Origin: Phycisphaerae bacterium | GTDB taxonomy: Bacteria > Planctomycetota > Phycisphaerae > Tepidisphaerales > Tepidisphaeraceae | NCBI GenBank assembly: GCA_014380825.1 | Contig: JACMJD010000296.1 | Location: 1 to 7,517 of the forward strand | Reading direction: 5' to 3' | DNA length: 7,517 nucleotides | In this document: in pieces, positions 864 through 7,517 of the stretch | Position numbering within the stretch: position 1 is the stretch's first letter | Layout: every line of letters begins with the position of its first letter | Program-made: the position numbers and the translations under genes | The notes under the pieces: generated by a model | The model's database searches: none | What the model saw: the letters and a program-made list of their open reading frames with translations, nothing else | Told to the model about the DNA's origin: nothing

Positions 864-1901
864 ATGCGACGGCACAACAAGTCTACGCGGGCTGCGGGCG
901 TCTCGATGATTTATTGTCTTATCGCGATGACCGCGGTCACCGGATTCATCTCGATGGGAGTCGACGTTGGACGCGTCCAACTCGCCAAGACCGAACTCCA
1001 ATGCGCCGCGGATGGCATCGCGCGTTATGCGGCGACGGGAGTCCTTAACGGAACTGCGGACAACAAAGCCAAGGCGGTCGACACCGACTATCTGGTCGAT
1101 GGCGTTCAACTGAAGTTGAAGAACGGCGACATCGACGTGGGCGTCTGGGATTCAGCAACGAAGACGTTTACCGTAACGAACACCAACCCCAATGCTGTGC
1201 GCATCATCGCGCGGAGATTGCAGTCGCGCGACACCGGGGTGCCCACCATCTTTATGCGGCTGATGGGTCAGAACTACGTGGACATTCAAGCCACCGCGAT
1301 CGCGACGTATGTGACAGGCACGACCACGACGCTGACCGCGCCGTCGAAGGGAAATCCGTGGCTTGCGGGAATGCCCAACGGCACAGTTGGAAACACATTT
1401 GACTCCGCGCCGAATAACTCTCCATCGCAGGTCACGGGAATTACCATGACGCCGGGCGCAACGCTCAACTTTGGCTTCACCGGGAGCGCAAGCTATTATC
1501 CCGGCACGCAGCCGTTTGATCCGGACGGCAACCCCGGGTGGATCATCAACAACTACGCCGGCCGCGAGCACGGGAAGTCTCAGTTGTATGCGCCACTGAC
1601 GGCGGTGGTTGGCGTTTTCCTGAACGACACGCAGCCGAACCTCGCCGGTGCGCCCCCCGCTGATTTGGATTTCACTTCGCCCGCCAGTCGCGACTTCGCG
1701 ACGTTAACGCCCGCGCTCCGCCAGCCGTTCTTCATCGGAAACGGCATGCGTGCCGACGGAACCACGCTGCAAAACTTCGTCGTCCCCGCCGGCGCGACGC
1801 GCCTATATCTGGGGATCATGGACGGCCAGCAGTGGAGCGATAACAGCGGCGCGCTCACGTCGACTGTCGTCAAACCCACGCAGATCACGACCGTCAAGTG
1901 A
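864..1901 (+). CDS. Tad-like pilus-assembly protein with LecA-like C-terminal domain (paralogue 1)
   Basis: 345 residues. A basic leader (1-11) is followed by the prepilin-like G12-V-S-M-I-Y17 and one hydrophobic segment (about 13-33), then GRVQLAKTELQ (36-46), the hallmark of TadE/TadG-like proteins. Residues about 70-150 match the shared Tad extracytoplasmic region (VGVWDSATKTFT, NAVRIIARR). From about residue 186 a second domain begins. Its features (SPxxVTGI, GWIINN, AGREH with His236, VGVFLND, FFIGNG, VPAGATRLYLG, then D320 and D326-N327-S-G) resemble the PA-IL/LecA galactophilic lectin fold, whose Ca-binding loop is D...NNSG. The protein is probably anchored in the inner membrane or built into a pilus, with the lectin-like domain outside. 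The start is the only ATG near the leader and has no strong Shine-Dalgarno sequence. It is the first of four tandem paralogues. The Tad assignment is firm; sugar binding is inference. Confidence 0.85.
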   Translation: MRRHNKSTRAAGVSMIYCLIAMTAVTGFISMGVDVGRVQLAKTELQCAADGIARYAATGVLNGTADNKAKAVDTDYLVDGVQLKLKNGDIDVGVWDSATKTFTVTNTNPNAVRIIARRLQSRDTGVPTIFMRLMGQNYVDIQATAIATYVTGTTTTLTAPSKGNPWLAGMPNGTVGNTFDSAPNNSPSQVTGITMTPGATLNFGFTGSASYYPGTQPFDPDGNPGWIINNYAGREHGKSQLYAPLTAVVGVFLNDTQPNLAGAPPADLDFTSPASRDFATLTPALRQPFFIGNGMRADGTTLQNFVVPAGATRLYLGIMDGQQWSDNSGALTSTVVKPTQITTVK

Positions 1902-1950
1902 GGCGAACGACTGGCTCGTTGAACCGAATGCCGCTGATCTCTGTCAGTAA

Positions 1951-1957
1951 AGGGGAG
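1951..1957 (+). promoter_or_regulatory. Ribosome binding site for paralogue 2
   Basis: AGGGGAG lies 6 bases before the ATG at 1964. It decides the start against the in-frame GTG at 1898, which overlaps the stop of the preceding gene and would add 22 residues not needed by the leader. Confidence 0.75.
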
Positions 1958-1963
1958 TTAACC

Positions 1964-3112
1964 ATGATGCGATCAACCATGGCAAACGGTAAGTGCCAGC
2001 CGCGGCTGCGTCGACGGCGCTATGCCGGCATCACACTGATTTATGCGACGGTCGTCATGGTGGTGCTGTGCTCGTTCGTGTCGCTGGGTGTTGACTACGG
2101 GCGCGTTCAACTGGCCAAGACCGAACTGCAACGGGCGGCCGATGCCGGATCACGCTACGGGGCGTCAGGCCTGAAGAATATCCTGTACGGTGTTTCCGCC
2201 GCCCGCGCGAACGCCGTTGTCGCCGCGAAAGACAATCTCGCCGACGGCTCACCGGTTACGCTGGATGCGAACAAGGATGTCGAGTTGATCATCTGGGACG
2301 CGAAGAAGAAAACCGCGACAGTCACAACCGACCCTTACGCCGCGAATGCAGTACGCGTCACTGCGCGACGGACCGCGGCGCGCGGCAACCCAATTCCCAT
2401 GACATTTGCCAGGCTCGCTGGGGTGAACTCTTGCGATGCCAGCGCCACGTCGATCTCCATGCTCACCCCCGGCGCGGATGAAGATTACCTGGTTGAAGCG
2501 ACCAACAATCCGTATCTATCGGGTATGCCGCCCGGCACGATCGCGAGCAATCCCAATCCCCATAACAACCCTGACTATAGCGGGTCCAAGAACACAGGGA
2601 AGACGAAGAAGAACACGTTGGTGCAGAAGCAATCGCCGGTTGATGCCGACATCCCCGTTGTCAGCAACGCGGCTTTCACCTTCGATGGAATCAACGGAAA
2701 CGCGAACAACGACATCAACGATCCAGCGCGTTACACCGCAGATGGAAACACCGGCTGGATTACCAAGAACCACAACGGCGCGGAAAATGGCATCAGTGAC
2801 TTGAACGCGCCGATCAACTCGCTGGTTGCGGTGTTCCTTGACGATACGCAGCCAAACACCAGCAGCGCGCCCAGCGCGCTCGACTTTGGTACGGCCGCGC
2901 AGCGCGACTTCACTACGCTCCAGCCGAAACTCAAACAGCCCTTCTTCATCGGTGATGGTCGAACCAGCACCGGCGAGGTGCAACAATTCATCGCTCCGCC
3001 GGGCGCGACGCGCTTGTTTATCGGCACCTGGGACAGCTACGAATGGAACAACAACGTCGGCGAGTTCTACCTGACGATTCACCGAACCGGCACCGTGCAG
3101 ACAGTAAAGTAG
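1964..3112 (+). CDS. Tad-like pilus-assembly protein with LecA-like C-terminal domain (paralogue 2)
   Basis: 382 residues from the RBS-supported ATG; a second ATG follows at once at 1967. The leader is long and Arg-rich (RLRRRR at 14-19). Then come G22-I-T-L-I-Y27, a hydrophobic segment, GRVQLAKTELQ and the shared Tad extracytoplasmic region (VELIIWDAKKKTATV, NAVRVTARR). The C-terminal domain is clearly homologous to that of the preceding gene: NPYLSGMPPGT, GNTGWI, VAVFLDDTQPN, KQPFFIGDG, PPGATRLFIG, then D357 and N362-N363-N364-x-G. Two differences stand out. The GREH His of the neighbour is Asn here (GAEN, Asn275), and a Lys/Thr/Asn-rich insert (about 206-223) precedes the lectin-like fold. 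It lies 62 bases after paralogue 1, consistent with one operon. Both proteins end in TVK. The C-terminal fold assignment rests on motif memory, not on a search. Confidence 0.86.
   Translation: MMRSTMANGKCQPRLRRRRYAGITLIYATVVMVVLCSFVSLGVDYGRVQLAKTELQRAADAGSRYGASGLKNILYGVSAARANAVVAAKDNLADGSPVTLDANKDVELIIWDAKKKTATVTTDPYAANAVRVTARRTAARGNPIPMTFARLAGVNSCDASATSISMLTPGADEDYLVEATNNPYLSGMPPGTIASNPNPHNNPDYSGSKNTGKTKKNTLVQKQSPVDADIPVVSNAAFTFDGINGNANNDINDPARYTADGNTGWITKNHNGAENGISDLNAPINSLVAVFLDDTQPNTSSAPSALDFGTAAQRDFTTLQPKLKQPFFIGDGRTSTGEVQQFIAPPGATRLFIGTWDSYEWNNNVGEFYLTIHRTGTVQTVK
2579..2632 (+). other. Lys-rich insert in paralogue 2, absent from paralogue 1
   Basis: This encodes about 18 residues (206-223) rich in Lys, Thr, Asn and Gly (GSKNTGKTKKNT core). 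It sits between the NNP-rich linker and the SP that opens the lectin-like domain. The sister gene goes from its NN linker to the SP with no such stretch. It is probably a linker extension. Confidence 0.5.
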
Positions 3113-3245
3113 GACCACGATCCTGGTGAATTATCAGACGCGCTGGTTCTGCGCGATCGACTTCATCACAAGCTCCCGCTATTCGATATATCAATGATGG
3201 CCCGTGTTCGATGCATTGCAGCGTCGCGCGCGATCGGTCAGGCGT

Positions 3246-3251
3246 AAGGAG
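3246..3251 (+). promoter_or_regulatory. Ribosome binding site for paralogue 3
   Basis: AAGGAG lies 7 bases before the ATG at 3259, near-ideal spacing. It fixes that start over an upstream in-frame ATG at 3211 that would add 16 residues. Confidence 0.8.
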
Positions 3252-3258
3252 CTTTCGA

Positions 3259-4362
3259 ATGATCGCGCACAGGCATGTTCGTCGAACCGGCATCTCATTG
3301 ATCTACGCGATGGTGGCGATGGTGGTGCTGGTCGGCTTTGTCTCGCTGGCGGTCGACCTCGGCCGCGTGCAGTTGGCAAAGACGGAGCTTCAGCAAGCAA
3401 CCGACGCCGCCGCGCGATACGCCGGGGGCGGCATGTGGCAGAGCGTGGCGACGGTCAAGAGCCGGGTCGCGACGGCGGGTTTGGAGAACATGGTTGACGG
3501 CAAGCCGTTGGTGATCGACCCAGCCGCCGACCTGGAATTCGGAACGTGGAACGCCGCTACCAAGACCTTCACCGTGCTGGTCGGCTCGGCACAGACCGGC
3601 GCCACCGCGGTCCGCGTGACGGGGCGACGATCAGCGTCGCGCGGCACCGCCGTCCCGACGTTCTTCGGTAAGCTATTGGGACGAAACACGATCGACATGA
3701 AGGCCACCGCGATCGCCGCATACGGCCAAGGTGCGGACGTGGTGCTCATTCAGGACATCACCACATCGTTCTCTGATGAGCTGGCGGATGCAAAGGTCGG
3801 CGACCAGGCGCTGGTCGATACGCTCTACGCCAACGGGAGCGGAATCACGCGCATCGCGATTCTTGTACACACCGGCTGGGGCAAGACATTGGCGCCGTTG
3901 ACCGTTGTCGGCACAAATTATTCCTATCTGACCAACATCGTCAGCTCGATCAAACTAGCTGGGAGTCCGGGCATGCCGGTCGCCAGTGGCACGGATATCG
4001 CCGCTGGATTCGACGAAGCCCTCAAGGTCTACACGGCACCGGGGTACGTCGCGCCGGCCGGCGGTAAGGTGGTTGTGCTCGTGAGCGACGGTCAACCCAC
4101 GTCAAGCAGTGCCGGCTCACATCCGGGGCTCAGCGATGCGCAAATGCTCACATTAGCGCAGACGCGAGCGAACCAACTGTGGGCACAGAACGTCCATATC
4201 TACATCGTGTTCTTCGATCGAGACAACGACGCAGCAGCGGCGAACAAGCTCAAGACGCTCACGCGAGGCAACGGCGACTTTGTAGCGGTGTCGGATCCCA
4301 AGGATCTGCCAACCGCACTCGCGGAAGTCACCAAACGACTACCGTTGAAACTCGTCAAGTGA
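3259..4362 (+). CDS. TadG-like protein with von Willebrand factor A domain (paralogue 3)
   Basis: 367 residues. A short basic leader is followed by G11-I-S-L-I-Y16, one hydrophobic segment (about 12-33), GRVQLAKTELQ and the shared Tad region (LEFGTWNAATKTFTV, AVRVTGRR, FFGKLLGRNTIDMKATAIAAY). From about residue 160 to the end lies a VWA domain. The strand VVLIQD carries the first MIDAS motif D166-I-T-T-S170, Thr245 in GTDIAAGFDEAL is the second ligand, and Asp277 in VVVLVSDGQP the third. A typical late strand, VHIYIVFF, follows. This N-terminal Tad plus C-terminal VWA order is the classical TadG layout, so it is the most conventional member of the array. The domain would bind a divalent metal and a protein ligand outside the membrane. 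It starts 146 bases after paralogue 2, the gap holding no recognisable gene. Its partner is unknown. Confidence 0.9.
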   Translation: MIAHRHVRRTGISLIYAMVAMVVLVGFVSLAVDLGRVQLAKTELQQATDAAARYAGGGMWQSVATVKSRVATAGLENMVDGKPLVIDPAADLEFGTWNAATKTFTVLVGSAQTGATAVRVTGRRSASRGTAVPTFFGKLLGRNTIDMKATAIAAYGQGADVVLIQDITTSFSDELADAKVGDQALVDTLYANGSGITRIAILVHTGWGKTLAPLTVVGTNYSYLTNIVSSIKLAGSPGMPVASGTDIAAGFDEALKVYTAPGYVAPAGGKVVVLVSDGQPTSSSAGSHPGLSDAQMLTLAQTRANQLWAQNVHIYIVFFDRDNDAAAANKLKTLTRGNGDFVAVSDPKDLPTALAEVTKRLPLKLVK

Positions 4363-4476
4363 ATGTGTTGCGGGCGGTTTTGCGAGCCACACCACCGTCA
4401 GTAGTTAACCGCGCCAGCATATGCCCGATCCTTGCACTTAGAAGCAACGCTACACACTGAAAGCAACTCGAAAAGT

Positions 4477-4554
4477 ATGGTCCTTCTGCTCCGCAACGAA
4501 TCGGGTGACGAAGTGCTCGAATATGCACTGATCGCAGGCCTGATCGATTTTTGA
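4477..4554 (+). pseudogene. Truncated Flp (type IVb) pilin relic
   Basis: This 25-codon ORF, too short for most gene callers, encodes LLLRNESGDEVLEYALIAGL followed by I-D-F and a TGA stop. Flp/Tad prepilins have a short leader, a Gly cleavage site, then four residues and Glu-Tyr (G/xxxxEY), and a hydrophobic helix rich in ALIA-type residues. Here G10-DEVL-E15-Y16 fits exactly and ALIAGLI follows, but the helix stops after nine residues where about twenty are expected. Neither other forward frame continues it: one stops within a few codons and the other reads polar sequence. It is therefore more likely a degraded pilin gene than a simple frameshift. It lies inside the array of Tad-like proteins, the expected genomic context for a pilin. 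No strong RBS was seen. Alternatively it is a chance match, or a real micropeptide. Confidence 0.6.
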
Positions 4555-4597
4555 ATTAAGTTGCGCGCACCCGAAGTGGATCCGATTCGAGCGATGC

Positions 4598-4602
4598 GGA
4601 GA
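4598..4602 (+). promoter_or_regulatory. Ribosome binding site for paralogue 4
   Basis: GGAGA lies 6 bases before the ATG at 4609. It favours that start over the in-frame ATG at 4594 and the TTG at 4561. Confidence 0.65.
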
Positions 4603-4608
4603 ACCGTT

Positions 4609-5826
4609 ATGCGTCAAGTCGATCAAAACGCGGCACACAATTACGAAGCAACCTCCTCGACGCGCAGGCATCGTCGCGGCGTGACGTTCATCTATGCGAC
4701 GATCGCATTCGTCGTGGTGGTTGGTTGCGTTTCAATGGCGGTGGACCTGGGCCGCGCGCAGTGCGCCAAGACCGAGCTTCAGCGTGCCGCCGACGCTGCC
4801 GCGCGATACGGTGCCGCCGGGATCGTCGACAGCACCGCGATTGCCAAGGCGACCACCGCCGCGGCGGAGAATCTGGTGGACGGCACGCCGCTGGTCCTGA
4901 GCAACAGCTTTGCAAACACGCCCAAGGATATCGAGCTGGGTAACTGGAACAGCACGCTGAGCCCGAGGTTCAGCACCAGCCGGACGCCGACCAATGCGGT
5001 TCGCGTGACCGCGCGGCGCACGTCCGCGCGCGGCACCGCGATCCCGCTTTTGTTCGCCAGGATGCTCGGACAAAACACGTGCGATCTGATGTCCACGTCG
5101 ATCGCCACGCAGAACATCGCCACGCCGAACTTCATTGGCCTGAACGGGATCACCGCGAAGAACAATGCCAGCGTCGGCTACGATCCGCTGCTGGGCGTGC
5201 CAAGTGCAGGCAATACCAGCAGTGGCGCGTCGATCGCATCGAATGCGGCGATCGACTTCAATAACAATCCTTCAATCAACGGATCGGTAATTCTTGGTCC
5301 CAGTGGAACCTTCAGCGGCTCCTCGCCCCCGACCAAGCTTGCTCAGGATCTGTCATACCCCGCCACGGAAAGTCCACCGTTTGCCGCGACGGGGAGCCTA
5401 AGCGTCAACGGCACCGTGCACATCACGGGCGGCGGTACAAAGGTGTACACGTCGATCAGCCTGAGCAACAACAGCATGCTGATCTTCGATAGCCCCACCA
5501 CCGTTTACGTGACGGGCAGCATCACGTATGCGCAAGGCGGCGAGATCAAGCCATTGAGCAACCTGCCGGTGGATCTGAAGATTCGAATGACCGGCGGCGC
5601 GGGGTCAACGCTCGGCGGAAATAATGCGAACAACATGGTGCTCACTGCACAGGTTTACGCGCCCGCCACCGATTTCATCGCCAAGAACAACGGCGAGCTG
5701 CGCGGCACGGGACTGTTCCGCACGATGAGCGCCACCAACACGCTGAGCCTCTATTACGACATCTCACAAAAGAGCGTGGTGTATGGGCTTAGCAATAACT
5801 ATCTGGGCGTGATGGTGGTGCAGTAA
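4609..5826 (+). CDS. Tad-like protein with PilX-type beta-repeat C-terminal domain (paralogue 4)
   Basis: 405 residues, the longest of the four. A 23-residue leader ending RRHRR precedes G24-V-T-F-I-Y29, the hydrophobic segment and GRAQCAKTELQRAADAAARY. The shared Tad region follows (IELGNWN, NAVRVTARR, LLFARMLGQNTCDLMSTSIA). From about residue 175 the protein changes to Asn, Ser, Gly and Thr-rich sequence with short alternating hydrophobic strands (INGSVILG, VNGTVHITGGG, TSISLSNNSMLIF, TTVYVTGSITY). It closes with LTAQVYAPATDF (346-357), GELRGTGLF and YYDIS. That ending recalls the beta-helical domain found on PilX-like and bactofilin-like exported proteins (DUF7305-type), where an IYAP motif precedes a final G-rich turn and a YD. 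It has no LecA-like or VWA motifs. A surface or pilus-tip role is inferred from the array. It ends in VVQ, unlike the VK end of the other three. Confidence 0.82.
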   Translation: MRQVDQNAAHNYEATSSTRRHRRGVTFIYATIAFVVVVGCVSMAVDLGRAQCAKTELQRAADAAARYGAAGIVDSTAIAKATTAAAENLVDGTPLVLSNSFANTPKDIELGNWNSTLSPRFSTSRTPTNAVRVTARRTSARGTAIPLLFARMLGQNTCDLMSTSIATQNIATPNFIGLNGITAKNNASVGYDPLLGVPSAGNTSSGASIASNAAIDFNNNPSINGSVILGPSGTFSGSSPPTKLAQDLSYPATESPPFAATGSLSVNGTVHITGGGTKVYTSISLSNNSMLIFDSPTTVYVTGSITYAQGGEIKPLSNLPVDLKIRMTGGAGSTLGGNNANNMVLTAQVYAPATDFIAKNNGELRGTGLFRTMSATNTLSLYYDISQKSVVYGLSNNYLGVMVVQ

Positions 5827-5923: not shown

Positions 5924-7517
5924 ATGCACAAGCCCATCGCAGCCGCGTGTCTGGCGCTGATCCTGATCAGCGCATCGTCGTGCGTCGATCACAGTCAATT
6001 GCCGCCTGAGCAACGGAAGTTCCAACCAAAACGCACCGCCGAAGACCGCGCCTACCAAGCGTTGGCGGCGGAGTATCTGGACGGCTACTTCACGTGGCGG
6101 CCGCAGACGGCGGTGTCGCTCGGCTTTCATGAGTACGACGGCAGGCCCGCGGATCTGTTGCCGCCTTCGCTCGACGCCGAGCGCACGCGACTGCGTCGCT
6201 TCCGCGATCGATTGGCCGCGATCGATCAATCCAGGCTTTCACCGGATATGTCACGCGAGAGCCGCGTTCTGCGTTCGGCCATTGATGGCGAACTGCTCAC
6301 GTTTGAGGTGTATCGCTCGTATTGGAAAAATCCGATGTCGTACGCTGACTCGTCGGAGTTGATGACGTACGCCAAACGCGACTTTGCATCTAAGCCGCAC
6401 CGGCTGAAGTCGGTGATAGCCCTCTTAAACGCGATGCCGAGCAAGACCGCCGCCGCCCGCGCGAACCTCGAGGAACATCTGCCGCGTACGTTCATCAAGA
6501 TCGCGATCGACCAGGCGGAAGGATCAGCGGCGTTCTTCAATGATGATCTGGTGCTGGCATTCGAAGACGTGAACGACCCGGCGCTTCAATCGCAGTTCAA
6601 GCAATCCCGCACGCTGGCCGCCAACGCGATGAAGCAGTTTGCGGCGTGGCTGCGCGACAAGAAGCTGCCGGCGGCGAACGACCAGCACGCGATCGGTCGC
6701 GACGCGTACGTGAAGATGCTGCGGCAGACCGAGCTGATGCAGGAATCGCCCGAGCAAATCCTGGCGATCGCCATGCGCGAGCTGAAGGCGGAACAAGATC
6801 GCTTTGCATCGATCGCCCGGGAAATCGACCCCGATCAACCGGCGATCGACGTGTACAAGTCGATCCAGCGCGATCACCCCACCGAACAAACGCTCATCCC
6901 TGAAACGGCCAAGCAGCTGGAGCAGATCCGTCAGTTCGTGATCGATCGAAAGCTCGTGCGATTTCCATCGAACGATCGCGTGAAGGTCGAAGAGACACCG
7001 AAGTTCGATCGCGCGACCGGCTTCGCGTTCATGGACGCGCCGGGTCCGTTCGAGCGGGCGGCACAGGCGTTTTATTTCGTCACGCCCACCGAGCCGGAAT
7101 GGGACGCGAAGCGAAAGGAAGAATGGCTGAGCGCGTTCAACTATTACGTGAACGATGTCACGTCGATTCATGAAGCTTATCCCGGCCATTTCGTACAGGC
7201 GCTGCATTTGAAGGCGTCGCCGGCGTCGAAGATCGACAAGACGTTCGGCAGTTACGCGTTCATCGAAGGCTGGGCGCACTACACGGAAAAGATGGTGATC
7301 GATGAAGGCTTCCCGGGAAACGCCGACGCAACGACCACGGCGAAGTATCGCCTGGCGCAATCGGACGAGGCGCTATTGCGACTGTGCCGGCTGTGCGTGT
7401 CCGTGCAAATGCACTGTCGGAATATGAGCGTGGATGATGCGACGAGGTTCTTCAGAGACAACGCGTACTACGAAGAAGCATCCGCCCGAAGCGAGGCCGA
7501 GCGCGGCACGTACGATC
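5924..7517 (+). CDS. DUF885 family exported protein, possible lipoprotein (3' partial)
   Basis: 531 complete codons are visible before the window ends with the frame still open; family members are usually about 550-600 residues, so only a short tail is missing. The N-terminus has a Lys, a hydrophobic core (AAACLALILISA) and SASSC with Cys20. This suggests a lipoprotein signal, although position -3 is Ala rather than the preferred Leu. The body carries the family's signatures: H416-E-A-Y-P-G-H422 and E448-G-W-A-H-Y, which together look like a metallopeptidase-type zinc site (HExxxxH plus a downstream Glu), and near the end ARSEAERGTYD. DUF885 proteins are poorly characterised, and a peptidase role in the envelope is inferred from these motifs. 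The start is chosen for the signal peptide; no clear RBS was seen. It lies 97 bases after the array and may have its own promoter. Confidence 0.88.
   Translation, partial: MHKPIAAACLALILISASSCVDHSQLPPEQRKFQPKRTAEDRAYQALAAEYLDGYFTWRPQTAVSLGFHEYDGRPADLLPPSLDAERTRLRRFRDRLAAIDQSRLSPDMSRESRVLRSAIDGELLTFEVYRSYWKNPMSYADSSELMTYAKRDFASKPHRLKSVIALLNAMPSKTAAARANLEEHLPRTFIKIAIDQAEGSAAFFNDDLVLAFEDVNDPALQSQFKQSRTLAANAMKQFAAWLRDKKLPAANDQHAIGRDAYVKMLRQTELMQESPEQILAIAMRELKAEQDRFASIAREIDPDQPAIDVYKSIQRDHPTEQTLIPETAKQLEQIRQFVIDRKLVRFPSNDRVKVEETPKFDRATGFAFMDAPGPFERAAQAFYFVTPTEPEWDAKRKEEWLSAFNYYVNDVTSIHEAYPGHFVQALHLKASPASKIDKTFGSYAFIEGWAHYTEKMVIDEGFPGNADATTTAKYRLAQSDEALLRLCRLCVSVQMHCRNMSVDDATRFFRDNAYYEEASARSEAERGTYD

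Follow-up and report, generated by a model that had tools for sequence, protein, structure and literature searches.

Four tandem genes on a Phycisphaerae contig encode a shared Tad-type pilin anchor with three kinds of head domain

Four adjacent genes share a Tad anchor

The DNA analyzed here (the window) is the 7,517-base contig JACMJD010000296.1 of a Phycisphaerae bacterium. It holds the end of an ATP-binding cassette (ABC) half-transporter gene, four Tad genes on the plus strand (positions 864–5826), here called T1 to T4, and a DUF885 gene. An earlier note, made from the sequence alone, had described the four open reading frames (ORFs), and they are present as claimed. Each protein consists, in order, of a leader of the form G-X4-aromatic, a helix, a pilin module, a head and a last strand. 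We consider it fairly likely that T1–T4 represent a group of four paralogues, all of them modular minor pilins of Tad (type IVc) pili, and the shared anchor with three kinds of head suggests that the tip of a surface hair could be fitted with different grips. This assignment is based on the anchor family, three unlike heads, the model folds of T2 and T4, a conserved metal ion-dependent adhesion site (MIDAS), LecA-like residue spacing, a C-terminal motif and a relative in a TadG slot.

The Pfam families Tad (PF13400) and Tad_C (PF09977) scored above cut-off in all four proteins, and an NCBIfam search of the window proteins gave nothing above its cut-offs. The anchors are 46–50% identical in pairwise comparison (z 42–50 versus shuffles). 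The 24-residue GR helix has 14 residues that are identical in all of T1–T4, and 12 of the corresponding codons vary in their third base, which reproduces both the constraint and the wide codon variation noted earlier. The heads of T1 and T2 are 44% identical (z 42), and the remaining five head pairs gave z values of −1.3 to 1.2 against shuffles. A single fold common to all heads was ruled out by the LecA-type sandwich of T2, the solenoid of T4 and the pairwise z values of the heads. A pilin module is joined to unrelated functional modules in T1–T4, the defining feature of modular pilins, and the anchor families in all four proteins together with heads of unlike fold bear out the proposal that these Tad-type minor pilins or adhesins form a modular set. 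The coordinates of the features are listed in Table 1.

Table 1. Features of the window and the basis of their assignment
Feature	Positions	Strand	Basis
T1, Tad/Tad_C anchor and LecA-type head	864..1901	+	ORFs, Pfam
T1 anchor: leader, hydrophobic helix, Tad, Tad_C	864..1322	+	
T1 head, LecA-type	1323..1901	+	homology to T2 (44% identity)
T1 head D-x6-N motif	1821-1850	+	
T1 C-terminal strand, last five residues	1884..1898	+	
T2, Tad/Tad_C anchor and LecA-type head	1964..3112	+	ORFs, Pfam, model
T2 anchor	1964..2476	+	
T2 head, PA-IL/LecA fold	2477..3112	+	model residues 172-377
T2 D357...N364...G366	3032..3061	+	Lec alignment
T2 C-terminal strand	3095..3109	+	
T3, Tad/Tad_C anchor and short VWA head	3259..4362	+	ORFs, Pfam, alignment
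T3 anchor	3259..3735	+	
T3 head, VWA	3736..4362	+	sequence
T3 MIDAS, first part, D166-x-T168-x-S170	3754..3768	+	
T3 MIDAS, T245	3991-3993	+	
T3 MIDAS, D277	4087-4089	+	
T3 C-terminal strand	4345..4359	+	
T4, Tad/Tad_C anchor and DUF7305 beta-solenoid head	4609..5826	+	ORFs, Pfam, model
T4 anchor	4609..5124	+	
T4 head, DUF7305, ice-binding/ComZ-like beta-solenoid	5125..5826	+	
T4 C-terminal strand	5809..5823	+	
ABC half-transporter, C-terminal 261 residues	1..786	+	recurrent upstream neighbour

Three kinds of head

Relatives were collected by database searches, which returned 485 (T2), 127 (T3) and 153 (T4) proteins, the 120 best being listed for each; the T3 and T4 searches scored only the candidates with most words in common. 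The relatives are often named Flp pilus assembly protein TadG, and the few named by organism are mostly Phycisphaerae or Tepidisphaeraceae. The anchor is present in 329 of the 333 proteins retrieved. Their heads were sorted by custom scripts into LecA-type (Lec), VWA and DUF7305 classes; 26 'other' heads were moved to DUF7305 after reading of sequences and domains, and the class counts include the window proteins P0001, P0121 and P0233. The heads given in the earlier note as LecA-like (twice) and VWA (once) were recovered, T2 by its model fold, T1 by homology and T3 by sequence.

The Pfam search gave no match for the heads of T1 and T2, and a PA-IL model was absent from the matches of the 47 members searched (E up to 0.1). 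A sequence search of solved structures with the Lec profile likewise gave nothing below E 0.1 (best 0.14). Structure comparison of the T2 model showed a LecA/PA-IL-type sandwich fold. All 155 rows of the Lec alignment, in which T2 is counted twice, share D357, N364 and G366 of T2, and the D357/N364 spacing equals that of Asp100/Asn107 in LecA in a comparison at the sequence level (numbering from PMC12684298). LecA/PA-IL and PllA are free lectins, whereas the T1 and T2 heads are pilin-borne and lack a PA-IL Pfam match. A search of an open-licence library by title and abstract found no paper on LecA-type heads on Tad pilins.

The domain search that the note had proposed placed the VWA match of T3 below the Pfam cut-off (20.4 versus 23.8 bits). 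VWA matches at E up to 0.001 were obtained in 16 of the 37 rows of the T3 alignment, and D166, S170, T245 and D277 of the MIDAS motif (DxS/TxS...T...D) are invariant in all 37, so a false VWA call was rejected. A search of solved structures with the VWA profile gave one match, 4cn8. CpaL of Caulobacter, a predicted Tad minor pilin with a MIDAS-bearing VWA domain, resembles T3 in its pilin module, G/A-X4 leader and DxTxS...T...D motif (PMC12607857). In contrast to T3, which has 367 residues and an uninterrupted VWA domain, CpaL has ~630 residues and a VWA domain split by beta-rich domains.

T4 matched DUF7305 above the Pfam cut-off (29.0 versus 27). Its model combines an ice-binding/ComZ-like beta-solenoid and a pilin module in one chain, and this assignment replaces the earlier description of the head as PilX-like. 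The DUF7305 profile found nothing below E 0.1 among solved structures by sequence (best 0.73). ComZ of Thermus thermophilus also has an ice-binding-like beta-solenoid on a pilin fold and is proposed as a tip receptor (PMC6561018). It differs in belonging to a competence pilus and in carrying a ~380-residue solenoid inserted between the penultimate and last strands, an insertion that in T4 is presumed.

A fourth kind of head, of the LamG type, was seen on the same anchor at locus L108 (6793-8073) and in P0299 and P0332. Two adjacent short anchor proteins with proline/threonine-rich ends, belonging to none of the three head classes, are encoded at locus L040 (genome G014, contig C19, 11315-13383).

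The leader and the C-terminal strand

The prepilin leader of the family has Gly in 96% of cases and Tyr, Trp or Phe at position +5 in 93%; T1–T4 have Tyr there, compared with the expected E/F. At the other end, T1–T4 all finish in a hydrophobic strand with V-K or V-Q, as do most relatives. The earlier statement that the proteins diverge fully beyond the anchor needs correcting on this point. A motif like [VI]-x-[LT]-V-[KQR] ends most proteins across head types and is looser in the VWA class. Tails were counted in 153 Lec, 39 VWA and 130 DUF7305 proteins, with four unlike heads treated separately. The penultimate residue is Val in 97% of the Lec, 56% of the VWA and 89% of the DUF7305 proteins, and V, I or L in 98%, 90% and 93%, respectively; the Val background is 7–10% in the 54 residues preceding the last six. 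The tail Val is also kept in the LamG-headed P0299, the 279-residue P0232 and the two short L040 proteins, which speaks for the tail being part of the anchor.

If T1–T4 follow a ComZ-like plan, the tail belongs to the anchor, and the head probably separates the final two strands of the pilin sheet. In the T2 model, the LecA rows stop at residue 377 and the PllA rows extend to 380, the last strand being 377–380; in the T4 model, most solenoid rows end at 384–388 and two reach 404, with the last strand at 401–403. The packing of the last strand is ambiguous in both models, which counts against insertion of the head, and so does the absence of the tail from P0332, from P0180, which is perhaps cut short, and from the products of L005 and L049.

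Relatives and exchange of heads

T1 is 83% identical to P0186, the nearest among the matches listed, versus 40% to its sibling T2. For T2, T3 and T4 the nearest aligned relatives among the matches listed are 60%, 79% and 77% identical, versus 46–50% between sibling anchors. Every gene is closer to an outside relative than to its siblings, so the duplications are older than those lineages, as had been proposed.

A contig scan with T2 yielded one useful genome, a Humisphaera metagenome-assembled genome (MAG; locus L001); a Kibdelosporangium locus with 24 matched residues was set aside as chance. An anchor match occurs in 22 of the 26 genomes of the family of this MAG. Genome G012 has a five-gene array (DUF-DUF-Lec-DUF-DUF), and G013 has two DUF genes and, elsewhere, four DUF7305-headed anchor genes in a row (L038, C105, 3168-9550). 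Smaller arrays are Lec-DUF in G005, Lec and DUF in G023, two Lec in G025 and two DUF in G001, one of them a partial anchor match. No VWA head was classed among the loci fetched from this family. Among 397 genomes sampled across the class, 3 encode short VWA heads, and Lec or DUF7305 heads were not found in the DNA fetched around the loci of those three. Anchor matches are present in 66 of 114 genomes from a different order of the class; of the 27 loci fetched from that order (L062–L088), 21 carry anchor and VWA frames of 596–817 residues, resembling CpaL, and 3 have DUF7305 heads.

The exact T1–T4 set, whose recurrence the earlier note had left to a neighbourhood survey, was not found elsewhere in the family loci or the 397 class genomes; what recurs is pairs and other arrays, the pairs being Lec with DUF7305 and VWA with Lec. 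The latter pair is seen in BH09PLA1, where the consecutive tags _07090 and _07100 belong to a VWA-headed protein 67% identical to T3 and a Lec-headed one 83% identical to T1. Records of the same size give an indirect hint of VWA beside Lec (7,005 bases) and VWA beside two DUF (6,121 bases).

Anchor trees were built from samples, one of 116 rows and one of 52 rows in which P0231 and P0161 were omitted as long branches. The head label needs 14 changes on the larger tree (least 2, shuffled mean 51.7), in which 49 of 113 inner branches are weak, and 9 on the smaller (least 2, shuffled mean 23.5), in which well-supported branches force 2 changes each for Lec and DUF. A single clade was weakly rejected for all Lec anchors (p 0.047) and for DUF (p 0.031), and was not rejected for VWA (p 0.446; three tests, uncorrected). 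The T1 anchor falls in a 13-row clade (99/93) of 10 DUF and 3 Lec anchors, T4 included. From these counts and tests, heads appear mostly to travel with their anchors, and some exchange, or anchor conversion, is likely. The idea of exchangeable heads thus stands in a restricted form.

Proposed function and alternatives

For T1–T4 as minor pilins, we infer cleavage, head insertion, tip position, ligands and alternative head use as follows. Each protein would be inserted in the inner membrane and processed by a prepilin peptidase, whose cut would follow the conserved Gly in the motif R-R-x-G-X4-[YWF]. By analogy with TadG, KilN and CpaL, docking at the end of a Flp pilus would take place through the alpha1 helix together with the Tad/Tad_C module, and the head, probably lying between the last two pilin-sheet strands, would be displayed at the pilus tip. 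There the predicted LecA-type calcium sites of T1 and T2 would bind glycans, the VWA MIDAS of T3 would serve to bind protein ligands or to sense force, and T4 may grip a solid or polymeric ligand by its rigid solenoid. In a wider and rather doubtful extension, Planctomycetes of this family would have gene cassettes for Tad tip pilins that can replace one another, in many cases located behind a conserved ABC exporter and at a distance from the tad locus. Lectin, VWA or solenoid heads would fit between the two final strands of a pilin frame common to all, and a switch in the member expressed would direct the same pilus to sugars, to proteins or to solid surfaces.

The link to Tad pili comes from the 26 family genomes, of which 21 contain RcpC and 23 contain Flp-like stretches (11 above cut-off). 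Anchors and RcpC co-occur across genomes, and one anchor (G022, C533) adjoins Flp-like stretches. A compact tad locus (L096; G021, C591, 339-7065) has a Tad-DUF7305 gene between TadE and RcpC, and also encodes a prepilin peptidase, a secretin and a ParA-like ATPase. We take this position to be the expected slot of TadG; a protein of the T4 type, at least, can therefore be a genuine TadG. Several observations weigh against a pilus role. An RcpC gene within 10 kb on the same contig was seen for only 4 of 73 anchors and was absent for the other 69, MAG contigs being short (73 of 74 anchor rows were used, the second piece of one frame being dropped). Two family genomes have anchors and no RcpC match, and the +5 residue is aromatic, not Glu. 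No TadE/TadF-like partner was found within the window, where the visible flanks of T1–T4, only ~0.9 and 1.7 kb, hold ABC_tran and DUF885. Foldseek gave no match at E 0.001 or better, and the shared tail is lacking in the exceptions named above (P0332, P0180 and the products of L005 and L049). The distance from tad loci, the two genomes lacking RcpC and the +5 residue would suit membrane-anchored surface or periplasmic binding proteins that keep the Tad-type helix and module outside any pilus. We nevertheless regard this as unlikely, given that conservation of the prepilin-like Gly, of the helix and of the C-terminal motif exceeds the needs of a plain membrane anchor, that anchors co-occur with RcpC and that one relative lies inside a tad locus.

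Adjacency of ABC and Tad-anchored genes is a recurrent neighbourhood in the family. The ABC end in the window is 80% identical to the gene preceding the G012 array and 46% identical to that gene's partner. Orthologues (59% or more) occur in 20 family genomes, and in 11 of them an anchor gene follows directly on the same strand, compared with 0 of 64 other ABC places having an anchor within 10 kb. Because the genomes are related, this association is less significant than its Fisher p of 9e-9 implies. These counts use 84 of 103 ABC rows; the two rows from G001 C291 were removed, as were 17 rows that formed the second half of an adjacent ABC pair. In the other orthologue genomes, the anchor lies 3.4–3.7 kb downstream (G001), a pair lies ~5 kb away on the opposite strand (G005), two contigs end too soon, and five show no anchor gene in the DNA covered. 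On this evidence T1–T4 could belong functionally to the exporter, as cargo or envelope partners, with the tad link secondary. We consider such a role highly improbable, however, because of those five genomes, because none of 12 loci examined outside the family has this neighbour (one with only ~590 bases downstream; 54 matching genomes, 24 of which gave no locus), because 52 of 73 anchors are more than 8 kb from this ABC gene or on other contigs, and because gaps of up to ~320 bases permit separate transcripts. It is also quite unlikely that T1–T4 are chiefly surface sensors reporting contact through the pilus. CpaL, which shares the MIDAS motif with T3, speaks for this, as a VWA tip pilin of a Tad system may sense force (PMC12607857), but only one of the four heads is VWA, and the lectin fold and the solenoid suggest ligand binding.

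Comparison with known systems

In published Tad systems the pilus is primed and aimed by TadEFG-like tip complexes whose heads vary, and interchangeable Tad tips were reported in 2025 in predatory bacteria (PMC12075869). TadG and KilN (Myxococcus xanthus Kil Tips) resemble T1–T4 in joining a Tad-type pilin module to a large variable C-terminal head, and several paralogous sets per genome occur in separate gene clusters. Kil Tips 1–3 have their own clusters, and a position in the tad locus is usual for TadG-type pilins. KilLMN are three-gene sets, whereas the window has four TadG-like genes in a row without TadE/TadF (PMC12075869). The heads also differ from those of TadG/KilN, being LecA-type, VWA and solenoid in T1–T4. 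PilB and PilC of Streptococcus sanguinis likewise carry VWA and lectin heads on pilin modules, which were modelled at one pilus tip (PMC8179133, PMC9934059). They differ in belonging to a type IVa pilus, in having a ConA-like lectin and in heads grafted at the C terminus, compared with the perhaps inserted heads of T1–T4. The locus is a compact natural set with recognisable heads and so lends itself to asking what each head binds and whether heads can be exchanged while the frame is kept. A testable rule for the position of the head in that frame follows from the shared C-terminal strand.

Flanking genes and gene starts

An orthologous ABC half-transporter precedes Tad-anchored genes at loci L036, L037, L045, L047, L117 and L118, and a second ABC half lies upstream of the first in G012, G013, G023, G025, G020 and G002; the ABC and anchor genes may possibly form one transcript. 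The downstream DUF885 protein (5924-7516, 235.9 bits) is cut by the contig end and has no evident link to T1–T4. A phage origin of the array was rejected, as a near match was absent among 50,697 phage records. Promoter and terminator patterns within the array showed no excess (2 and 5 sites versus 1.7 and 6.1 expected). A clear GGAG-type motif was not found upstream of the T1 start (864). For T2, T3 and T4, upstream GGGGAG, AAGGAG or GGAG motifs favour ATG 1964, 3259 and 4609, and these preferred starts leave intergenic gaps of 62, 146 and 246 bases between the four genes.
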